DNA from: a virus
Strand: one strand, 5' to 3'
IMG/VR virus record: IMGVR_UViG_3300044616_000153
Span: 1-21,895 of that record
DNA: 21,895 nt
Both the position numbers and the translations under genes were made by a program. Shown here piece by piece: positions 19,550-21,868 of the stretch. The first letter of the stretch is position 1, and each line of letters begins with the position of its first letter. Under the pieces are notes generated by a model, which saw nothing but the letters and a program-made list of their open reading frames with translations, made no database searches and was not told the origin of the DNA.

Positions 19550-20014
19550 ATGAAACATATATTACTTTTTATTAGTTTATTATTTATAAATATTGCTCAT
19601 GCAGACGAGACTACCATTAACTATAAAGGTCAGCCAGTTCCATCTGCCATGGCTCCATCAATGTCAGCCTTTAGTCAAGATGTATGTAGCATCGGTATCA
19701 GTGGCGCTGTCAATGGCGGTATATTCTCTGTTGCTGGTGGTACAATGGTCACAGATAACAACTGCGTTAAACTTCGTTGGGCTAAGTTCCTAAGTGACAG
19801 CGGCCTCAAGGTAGCAGCAGTATCATTATCTTGTGCGGCTAACCATGACAACTGGGTAGCAATGGAAATGAGTGGTAGCCCATGTCCTATAGGTGGTGCT
19901 ATTGGTGATGCGGCAAGAAAGGCTTGGTATGATTTACATCCAAACTGGTTTGAGGAAATTTATGGTAAAGACTTTGTCCTTATCACTCCTCTGCCTGATT
20001 CTTCTAAGGAGTAG
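19550..20014 (+). CDS. Exported phage protein with four cysteines, function unknown
   Basis: The 154-residue precursor has a clear signal peptide (KHILLFISLLFINIAHA, cleavage after A18, leaving DETTINYKG) and four cysteines (46, 72, 95, 112). The mature part begins with KGQPVPSAMAPSMSAFSQDV, a block I remember from many phage proteins near fibre and lysis genes. It continues with IGISGAVNGGIFSVAGGTMV, DNNCVKLRWAKFLSDSGLKV, then ASLSC-like and GSPCPIGG. No catalytic motif is visible. It would be periplasmic or outer-membrane bound; cysteines suggest disulfides. The 3' end overlaps the start of the next gene by 53 bases. Possible roles include envelope modification, superinfection exclusion or lysis; the sequence does not decide. 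Confidence 0.7.
   Translation: MKHILLFISLLFINIAHADETTINYKGQPVPSAMAPSMSAFSQDVCSIGISGAVNGGIFSVAGGTMVTDNNCVKLRWAKFLSDSGLKVAAVSLSCAANHDNWVAMEMSGSPCPIGGAIGDAARKAWYDLHPNWFEEIYGKDFVLITPLPDSSKE
19952..19956 (+). promoter_or_regulatory. Ribosome-binding site within an upstream gene
   Basis: GAGGA stands five bases before ATG 19962 and lies inside the coding part of the 154-residue exported protein. It supports the start of the Cys/Pro-rich gene, whose first 22 codons from here form a signal peptide. Confidence 0.6.
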
Positions 20015-21041
20015 TTATGTTTACGCATATTGTTACGCAAATCAGTGGGCGGATTACGGCCCTGTATACTCAAGTCTTGGCGTCGCTCAAGGCACTACTC
20101 TCCAGGCTTGTCAACAACTTGCGTGTGAGCTTTTCCCGGGCATACCAGAATGTAGTCAACCTGTTCAACCCCCTTGTACAGACATTGTTGAAAATCAAAG
20201 CCTTGCTTGTGAGCCTAACTACTCAGGTTCAGTTAATCAAACAAGGACTAAAACTTGTAGTAACAACCAGTGGACAGATTGGGTCACAACTTCTAACAAC
20301 TGTACGCCAAATCCCCCAAGCTGTAATCCAAGCGTTCAAGAAAGACCAGTAGCATGTCAGCAGGGGTTTGTTGGAACGATAACAGAACAGCAAACAACAA
20401 CATGCCCAACGCCTTACAGTCCACCTATAGTTTCACCTTGGATAGAAACATCAAATACATGTACAAAGAGTGCAACCAATCCAACCAACATGTCGAGTCC
20501 GGTAAATCCTGCGAGTCCGTTAAGTGTACCTGCGACCCCGGAAGCAATGCCACCTGCACCTGCACCGGAGCCACCACCAGAGCCACCACCGATGGAAGCG
20601 CCACCCCCAGACATACCAGCTTCCCCTGCTCCCACTGCAGAGACAACGACAGCACCGCCAGTGGCCTCGTCAGGAAACACAAGTACACCAGCATCCGCTC
20701 CACCGCCAGCAAGTGCGCCACCGCCACCGACTACATCGAACGCGAGTACGCCGACTACCTCTCAGCCACAAGTACCAAAGGGCAAGGAGTTGGTGCCAGG
20801 GTTTGGAGTAGTGATGAGCCTAGAGATTTTAAACAAGCCAATGCAGATTCAGGAGATTCAATTGAACGACGCACTGGCATACCAGCAGGAGTTACCGTAT
20901 GAGCTTAGAGGAAATCAAGGAGTCTTACTCCAACTTATCACCGAAGGGAATATTGCTGACGCTTTCACTAATCTTGCCAGCGATAGGTGGAACAGCCTAC
21001 GTCGGTATAACGACTTACAACCGAGTTATAGCGGCGACTGA
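19962..21041 (+). CDS. Exported cysteine- and proline-rich modular protein
   Basis: The 359-residue precursor is not a family I can name with certainty. Starting at ATG 19962 gives a signal peptide (K3, then LSLSLLCLILL, cleavage after VYA at 22). The mature part contains 12 cysteines between 24 and 167. Residues 72-114 and 121-167 are two similar modules with C-x(10)-C, then [YF]-x-G-x(8)-T-C and [WI]-x-x-x-x-TSN-[NT]-C. Module patterns of this type occur in phage and pilus surface proteins. A long Pro/Ala/Thr linker (174-272) with runs such as PPPEPPPMEAPPP follows. The C-terminal block (273-359) starts at GKELVPGFGVVMSLEIL and ends RYNDLQPSYSGD. Codons for Pro and Ala are GC-rich compared with the phage average. 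It overlaps the previous gene by 53 bases and the next by 143. The start moved from GTG 19893, whose extra 23 residues would spoil the signal peptide. Confidence 0.7.
   Translation: MVKTLSLSLLCLILLRSSYVYAYCYANQWADYGPVYSSLGVAQGTTLQACQQLACELFPGIPECSQPVQPPCTDIVENQSLACEPNYSGSVNQTRTKTCSNNQWTDWVTTSNNCTPNPPSCNPSVQERPVACQQGFVGTITEQQTTTCPTPYSPPIVSPWIETSNTCTKSATNPTNMSSPVNPASPLSVPATPEAMPPAPAPEPPPEPPPMEAPPPDIPASPAPTAETTTAPPVASSGNTSTPASAPPPASAPPPPTTSNASTPTTSQPQVPKGKELVPGFGVVMSLEILNKPMQIQEIQLNDALAYQQELPYELRGNQGVLLQLITEGNIADAFTNLASDRWNSLRRYNDLQPSYSGD
20006..20011 (+). promoter_or_regulatory. Ribosome-binding site of an embedded ORF
   Basis: AAGGAG lies five bases before ATG 20017 and spans the last two sense codons of the exported protein. 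The ATG opens a frame different from that of the Cys/Pro-rich gene. The spacing and strength are as good as for the capsid gene. Confidence 0.5.
20017..20352 (+). CDS. Embedded basic 111-residue ORF, possibly an overprinted gene
   Basis: This frame runs inside the Cys/Pro-rich gene, one base out of register, two bases after the 154-residue gene. It has a very good ribosome-binding site. The predicted product has no Cys, no Glu, one Asp, seven Lys and five Arg. Leu, Val and Gln runs such as QTLLKIKALLVSLTTQVQLI form amphipathic or semi-hydrophobic helices, which would suit membrane action. Against it, the +1 reading of Cys- and Thr-rich codons naturally gives Val/Leu/Lys, so composition may only mirror the other frame. 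I recognise no family. The frame that carries the signal peptide and disulfide modules is the better-supported gene here; this one is listed as a possible second product. Confidence 0.3.
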   Translation: MFTHIVTQISGRITALYTQVLASLKALLSRLVNNLRVSFSRAYQNVVNLFNPLVQTLLKIKALLVSLTTQVQLIKQGLKLVVTTSGQIGSQLLTTVRQIPQAVIQAFKKDQ

Positions 21042-21369
21042 AGCGATTGAGGCAGCCAAGCCTTATGACGATGCAGAGTTACGAGCAGAAGTAAATGCGT
21101 TAAAGGTTCAACTTTCTGCACAACAATCATCTGTCAACACAGTTAAAGACTCTATGGTTACTACATCTAACCAGCTAGTGTCCATGCAAGAGAAAGTATC
21201 TAATGCTATTGGCACAGCGAATGAAGCCAAGGCTATTACTAACGGCAACGTGCGTGAGACATCAGCGTCATTACTTGGTGTGCGTGAGGAAATGAAAGCA
21301 ACTCGTGAAGGCATAGAGTCACAACTTAAAGCACTTAAACGTGCTACATCTAACCCACTAGGAAACTAA
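20899..21369 (+). CDS. Membrane-anchored coiled-coil protein of the lysis block
   Basis: The 156-residue protein begins MSLEEIKESYSNLSPKG, followed by one membrane helix (ILLTLSLILPAIGGTAYVGI, 18-37). A long charged coiled coil follows from about 55 to 145 (DDAELRAEVNALKVQLSAQQ, later REEMKATREGIESQLKALKR), and the end is NPLGN. 'LSPKGILxxLxxILPAIGG' is a start I know from phage proteins near holin genes. An inner-membrane protein with a long coil could be an i-spanin (Rz-like) or a holin accessory; neither is proven. AGGAG seven bases before the ATG supports this start, though 143 bases are shared with the Cys/Pro-rich gene in another frame. The coil keeps good heptads after the overlap ends, so this frame is real. 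Confidence 0.75.
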   Translation: MSLEEIKESYSNLSPKGILLTLSLILPAIGGTAYVGITTYNRVIAATEAIEAAKPYDDAELRAEVNALKVQLSAQQSSVNTVKDSMVTTSNQLVSMQEKVSNAIGTANEAKAITNGNVRETSASLLGVREEMKATREGIESQLKALKRATSNPLGN

Positions 21370-21370
21370 T

Positions 21371-21868
21371 ATGTTATCTATTATCTCAGGTCTATTAGGC
21401 ATAGGCTCATCAGCACTACCAAGTATCTTAGGATTCTTCCAGCAGAAGGGAGACCAGAAGCATGAGATGGCTATGGCTCGTTTGCAGACAGAACGTGAAG
21501 CAGCTATGGCTGCCGCTGGCTTTGCATCACAAGAAAAGATTGAAGCTATTAAGTTAGATGAGATTGAAGTGCAGACTTATGCACAAGAGCGTGAGGCTTT
21601 ATACAATCACGACATGAAGATGATGGACAAGGCATCACAGTCTGTCGTTGATATGAACGCTAGGGTTCGCCCATTGATTGCGTTTACTTTTGTTGGCTTG
21701 CTAGTGCTAGTAGACCTTGTTGGCTTAGGATGGGCAATCTATACAGGCGTAGAGTTCACTGTAGCTATGGGCTTGGTATTCTCTGACGACGAGATGGCTA
21801 TTGTGTCTAGTATCATTGGTTTCTACTTTGGCTCTCGTCAATGGGAAAAACATAGTGCGAGCAAGTAA
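21371..21868 (+). CDS. Holin-like 3-TM protein (GTA_holin_3TM type)
   Basis: The 165-residue protein has an N-terminal hydrophobic helix (LSIISGLLGIGSSALPSILG, 2-21) and an internal charged helix (KGDQKHEMAMARLQTEREAA onward, to about 95). A second membrane helix (RPLIAFTFVGLLVLVDLVGL, 100-119) follows, and the end has VSSIIGFYFGSRQWEKH. The last motif ('I-I-G-F-[YW]-F-G-x-R-x-[WF]-x-K') and 'x-R-P-[LT]-I-A' are typical for the holin superfamily seen in gene transfer agents and many phages. It would open or weaken the cytoplasmic membrane in lysis. AGGAA stands upstream of the ATG. It lies immediately before the probable endolysin start, a usual lysis pair. Confidence 0.82.
   Translation: MLSIISGLLGIGSSALPSILGFFQQKGDQKHEMAMARLQTEREAAMAAAGFASQEKIEAIKLDEIEVQTYAQEREALYNHDMKMMDKASQSVVDMNARVRPLIAFTFVGLLVLVDLVGLGWAIYTGVEFTVAMGLVFSDDEMAIVSSIIGFYFGSRQWEKHSASK

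Follow-up and report, generated by a model that had tools for sequence, protein, structure and literature searches.

Our analysis indicates that the gene at 19962..21041 (plus strand) of the window, a stretch of 21,895 nucleotides forming positions 1 to 21,895 of the IMG/VR virus record IMGVR_UViG_3300044616_000153, is in all likelihood read in two frames. Frame 0, the main ORF, encodes an exported Cys/Pro-rich protein of 359 aa, and nested within it in the +1 frame lies ORF1 (20017..20352, plus strand, 111 aa), an unannotated second gene recognised by its stop avoidance, its helical moment and its AF2 model. The earlier note on this DNA described the main protein and overlooked ORF1, which appears to have been selected to stay open; that description is thus incomplete. 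As a whole we propose, with less than even confidence, a two-frame podovirus lysis gene whose nested product would be a disruptin-type outer-membrane disruptor replacing spanins.

The main protein is real and lies far beyond a chance ORF. As previously described, it starts at ATG 19962, five bases downstream of a GAGGA (19952-19956), and begins with a signal peptide (residues 1-22, ending ...YVYA/YC; 19962..20027, plus strand), which is conserved among homologues. The frame stops at the TGA at 21039-21041, and nearly all homologues keep it open to a TGA. The 12 Cys of the mature protein, the two Cys modules of about 48 residues and the Pro-rich linker are likewise present as claimed. By AF2 and alignment, the modules span about residues 70-117 and 119-167 (20169..20462, plus strand), and each was modelled as a three-stranded beta unit, with a pLDDT of about 90 over residues 70-170. 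The Pro/Ala/Ser/Thr-rich linker (20463..20777, plus strand) varies in length among homologues and, like the C-terminal block (20778..21038, plus strand), was modelled at low confidence. This block does have the 87 residues ascribed to it, with its own constraint chiefly in the first ~40 (about residues 272-312), whereas the last ~47 are conserved only at the level of a by-product.

More than 150 relatives of the main protein were found in environmental phage contigs: 84 were confirmed in a first scan of IMG/VR, 99 came from a clade B search with the more distant homologue of MW202481.1 as query, and 23 from a clade C search with L060 as query. The cysteines are conserved in the main frame, Cys 24, 50, 55, 64, 132, 148 and 167 being invariant and C121 nearly so in 37 aligned homologues, and the number of module copies ranges from one to about five. 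Sequence searches of Pfam, PHROGs and PDB assigned no family to the main protein, a two-pattern scan of GTDB genomes did not find it, and BFVD gave a single match, to an unnamed protein (H6BJ76, 30% identity). Structure matches of the Cys modules by Foldseek and VIA-align, SasG/Aap-type sheets among them, were weak (best Z 4.3), and we therefore claim no fold. An exported disulfide protein with a variable number of modules would fit a periplasmic or surface role, and may, as the earlier note suggested, take part in exclusion or adhesion. In the public record of MW202481.1 (Podoviridae sp. ctXG6705; our locus L151), the main-ORF homologue at 35489-36975 is called 'transport protein tonB', and both the upstream exported gene and ORF1 are unannotated. 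This homologue shows 52.7% identity over 56% of the query, and ORF1 is present in it. The TonB label found no support in Pfam, where no TonB family appeared among the matches of the window protein (E<=1) or of the 37 homologues (E<=0.1).

ORF1 begins where the preceding gene ends. The upstream exported protein (19550..20014, plus strand, 154 aa) matches phrog_20531 (4.8e-7; residues 189-274 of 314, unknown function), and its gene accompanied the main ORF in 52/52 homologues tested. Directly 5' of its stop TAG (20012-20014) lies the ORF1 Shine-Dalgarno AAGGAG (20006..20011, plus strand), so that the start context in the window reads AAGGAG-TAGTT-ATG, with the ATG two bases after the stop. All 124 homologues of the three clades possess the ATG; it falls within -4 to +5 nt of the upstream stop in 123 of them and follows an SD-like motif in 111. 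The junction itself varies by clade (TAGTTATG or TAATG) and the arrangement is kept. Part of this conservation could follow from the frame-0 codons of the signal peptide. Over the N-terminal domain and the first module or modules, the +1 frame was open in every full-length main-ORF homologue examined except L072, and among further contigs with the upstream gene all have ORF1 where they are long enough to tell. ORF1 is 111-114 aa long in homologues and reaches about 165-178 aa where a Cys module has been added, still without a stop.

In order to ask how often such a frame would be open by composition alone, synonymous codons were permuted within the region so that neither the main protein nor the regional codon usage changed. 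For single sequences the permutation P was 0-0.06. Among 34 dereplicated homologues of the three clades, about 45 stops were expected in ORF1 and 0 were observed, these expectations being not fully independent because the representatives within a clade are related. For this reason the agreement of the three clades is the stronger argument: 16.8, 11.7 and 16.1 stops were expected in clades A, B and C, respectively, and none was found in any. The same avoidance is visible codon by codon. L, V or I codons standing before A or G formed a +1 stop in 0/1,038 cases (0/448 in A, 0/494 in B, 0/96 in C); when C or T followed, such codons of the ORF1 region ended in TA in 34%, 58% and 47% of cases (A, B, C). 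In the +2 frame of the region stop avoidance was absent, which means that ORF1 does not reflect a general dislike of TAG, TAA or TGA. It is very improbable, then, that the open frame is a by-product of main-protein composition with no second protein behind it. Such ORFs do arise readily in genes poor in L, V, I and M, and the low identity of the +1 frame would agree with this reading, but it would have to account for about 45 expected stops with the main protein and codon usage already fixed, and for avoidance in one frame only. From these data, dual coding by frame 0 and ORF1 is a conclusion that we hold with high confidence.

We then considered the product of ORF1 under the same two constraints, an unchanged main protein and an unchanged regional codon usage. 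Synonymous choices raised the hydrophobic moment at 100 degrees (mean z +2.2, +3.2 and +3.5 in clades A, B and C) and did not raise it at 60, 80, 120, 140, 160 or 180 degrees; in control genes the moment z at 100 degrees was -0.6. Positive charge was raised as well (mean z about +1.4), but the region's +2 frame, which is not under selection, likewise carries an excess of charge, and this makes charge the weaker of the two signals. MW202481.1, which first came up as a single distant match, shows the same pattern, with a charge z of 5.1 and a moment z of 4.1. Since the moment is specific to an alpha-helix and charge is in excess, selection appears to act on ORF1 at the protein level. AF2 modelled it as a single 108-residue helix (pLDDT 88, pTM 0.39). 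A signal peptide is absent, and the ORF1s of clade B include very hydrophobic stretches. Residue identity of ORF1 was barely above that of a main-frame by-product (for example, 0.41 for the +1 frame vs 0.37 for the +2 frame at a main identity of 0.66), and over ORF1 synonymous sites diverge about as much as in ordinary genes nearby. Unlike the downstream overlap described below, ORF1 is therefore loosely constrained in sequence. Taken together, these results make it very probable that ORF1 is translated and that its product must form a cationic amphipathic helix, with little demand on the exact residues. We discounted matches of ORF1 to tape-measure proteins in PHROGs (best 2.3e-4) as a general likeness between amphipathic helices, because they fell in several different families and came from a minority of members; none was found for the clade B ORF1 scanned.

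A further reading frame follows ORF1. ORF2 (20354..20902, plus strand, +2 frame, nested, 182 aa) starts one base after the ORF1 stop (TAG-C-ATG), and its own stop overlaps the start of the next gene (ATGA). It is open in clades A and C and not in B: downstream of ORF1, the +2 frame had 15 stops vs 85.5 expected in A, 39 vs 94 in C and 146 vs 143.5 in B. ORF2 might add a third layer of coding, or it might serve as a path for reinitiation. This raises the question of whether the +1 and +2 frames are both open only as a path of termination and reinitiation, leading from the gene at 19550 through ORF1 and ORF2 to the gene at 20899, with idle peptides. The junctions TAGTTATG, TAGCATG and ATGA do tile the window in this way, stops are avoided in both frames in clades A and C, and the residue identity of ORF1 is at by-product level. 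An idle peptide, however, would not acquire the helix-specific moment and excess charge of ORF1, which require selection on the protein. Moreover, such a relay is broken in clade B and in part of clade A (L010, L025), because ORF2 is not open to the next gene there, and yet ORF1 persists. We consider the relay unlikely as the sole explanation.

The genes around ORF1 form a lysis cassette, in the order small TM protein, upstream exported protein, main ORF/ORF1, TM and coiled-coil protein, holin-like 3-TM protein and lysozyme. The downstream TM and coiled-coil protein (20899..21369, plus strand, 156 aa) has an N-terminal TM segment and then a coiled coil by sequence, and it resembles an i-spanin in layout only, its matches to Rz-like PHROGs being weak (0.76 for the window, 0.027 and 0.083 for the clade B neighbour). 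The 3-TM holin-like protein (21371..21868, plus strand) matched Pfam GTA_holin_3TM (8.3e-5, narrowly missing the cut-off of that family) and the holin family phrog_3427 (0.0013), and in relatives a lysozyme (PHROG endolysin) comes after it. The earlier placement of a modular exported disulfide protein beside lysis genes is thus supported, with the holin-like gene at 21371 and the lysozyme of the relatives as its company. In clade B, a SprT-like metalloprotease lies between the TM/coiled-coil and holin-like genes (L188:6333-6692, L151:7126-7464; HExxH by eye). The two end overlaps of the main ORF also agreed with the earlier account, 53 nt with 19550-20014 and 143 nt with 20899-21369, and both are conserved in relatives. 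Four-fold sites of frame 0 change little in either overlap; in the downstream one, for example, the figure is 0.09, compared with 0.41-0.61 elsewhere at 60-75% identity. Within that downstream overlap, conservation is stronger in the neighbour's frame than in frame 0, which barely exceeds the third frame; hence the last ~47 residues of the main protein are mostly dictated by the neighbour.

We further surveyed these loci for spanins by a lipobox scan for spanin lipoproteins, which recovered lambda Rz1 as positive control. The window end and the cassettes of six relatives gave none besides matches inside the lysozyme gene, and the complete 41-kb genome of MW202481.1 gave none, its sole match again lying inside lysozyme. 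Among 116 loci that extend 2.5 kb or more downstream, those with ORF1 showed no separate spanin lipoprotein gene, although two loci share a 42-aa ORF. In clades A and B, a hydrophobic out-of-frame ORF lies within the lysozyme gene (e.g. L019:7214-7453, L188:7346-7540), and in four clade A loci (L012, L020, L021 and L074) it shows a lipobox. An ORF of this kind could be a by-product or a second nested gene.

L072 is the only homologue seen without ORF1: many stops interrupt its +1 frame, and it has no ORF1 ATG. In this locus the TM/coiled-coil gene (Rz-like PHROG, best 1.8e-4) overlaps a lipoprotein gene (Rz-like PHROG, 2e-4). This one ORF1-less locus suggests that ORF1 and an Rz/Rz1-like pair may be in exchange. 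The endolysin of this ORF1-less relative (L072, L267, L324) is phrog_181, also with chitinase-family matches, in place of the usual lysozyme. The same locus bears on the spanin-like bridge that the earlier note had offered for the main protein. In the form weighed here, the exported protein itself would carry out the outer-membrane step together with the downstream TM/coiled-coil protein. The overlap of a Pro-rich exported protein with a TM and coiled-coil gene, and the weak Rz-like matches of the clade B neighbour, would suit such a bridge. The main protein, however, has no lipobox at YVYA/YC and so no outer-membrane anchor, and in L072 homologues of both proteins stand beside a separate Rz/Rz1-like pair; as Rz/Rz1-like genes coexist with a main-protein homologue there, the main protein is probably not the outer-membrane step. 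We regard the bridge as quite unlikely. The TM and coiled-coil neighbour could still be part of an unrecognised spanin.

The exchange in L072 and the biophysics of the helix make a disruptin-type role our leading proposal for ORF1, a tentative one that is held somewhat short of an even chance. In this model, frame 0 would yield an exported disulfide-rich protein of beta modules on a Pro-rich stalk. ORF1 would probably be translated by ribosomes that end the upstream gene and restart at AAGGAG-TAGTT-ATG, a reinitiation suggested by the conserved site. Lacking a signal peptide, the cationic amphipathic helix would accumulate in the cytosol, exit once the holin has opened the inner membrane and the lysozyme has cut the wall, and then bind and disrupt the outer membrane in place of Rz/Rz1 spanins. 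The adjoining holin-like and lysozyme genes provide the lysis context. Against the proposal stand the loose constraint on the ORF1 sequence, its length, which is great for a disruptin (111-170 aa), the chance that the TM and coiled-coil neighbour belongs to a spanin, and the lipobox ORFs inside the lysozyme gene of four clade A loci. A different role is possible, though doubtful: ORF1 may be a real membrane-active helix whose site of action is the inner membrane, where it would be a holin, an antiholin or a factor that times lysis, or it may have another envelope role. The evidence for dual coding and for the helix fits this equally, and the very hydrophobic stretches of clade B and the location in a lysis cassette would agree with it. 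On the other hand, a 3-TM holin-like gene is already there, and an inner-membrane role leaves the absence of spanins and the exchange in L072 unexplained. More speculative is a combined reading for clades A and C, to which we give a rather low probability, of a 1.08-kb gene read in two layers over nearly its whole length, with a reinitiation relay, whose ORF1 would be the overprinted, spanin-replacing disruptin of many uncultivated podoviruses, exchanged with Rz/Rz1.

Overlapping lysis genes are already known, and what is new here is the arrangement and the product. Small phages have out-of-frame lysis genes, as with phiX174 E inside D and MS2 L. ORF1, as proposed, would resemble these as a membrane-active lysis protein whose gene overprints another, but its phage is tailed, has dsDNA and carries holin-like and endolysin genes, and its host gene encodes an exported protein. 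Likeness to the nested genes Rz/Rz1 of lambda lies in the overlap of lysis genes in different frames, in the step proposed and in the adjoining TM and coiled-coil gene. Unlike that pair, there is no lipobox protein, the nested ORF1 encodes a cationic helix and not a Pro-rich lipoprotein, and the product of the gene around it is an exported disulfide protein. In the account given by PMC12819732, which cites Holt et al. 2022, the disruptin of phage phiKT is an amphipathic-helix peptide that acts at lysis in a phage without identifiable spanins. ORF1 is similarly cationic, amphipathic and encoded with lysis genes, a likeness by description; the phiKT disruptin is a short peptide, whereas ORF1 has 111-170 aa and lies out of frame inside the gene of an exported protein. 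The overlapping exclusion genes olg1/olg2 of Pseudomonas phage Fc02, which act in superinfection exclusion (PMC9936078), are comparable by description as phage ORFs overlapping in alternate frames, but differ in location and function.

Among tailed phages that infect Gram-negative hosts, about 13% have no identifiable spanins, and PMC12819732 describes it as an open question whether such phages encode disruptins or other outer-membrane disruptors. The finding of a conserved cationic helix, encoded out of frame in spanin-less cassettes, suggests that some disruptors are missed, as annotation skips nested genes. The three-part test used here, namely frame-specific stop avoidance, start context and angle-specific helical moment, needs homologous sequence only and could be applied to other spanin-less cassettes. 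At the opposite end of the window, a partial ORF at its very start (3-290) looks by eye like an HNH/AP2-type homing endonuclease.
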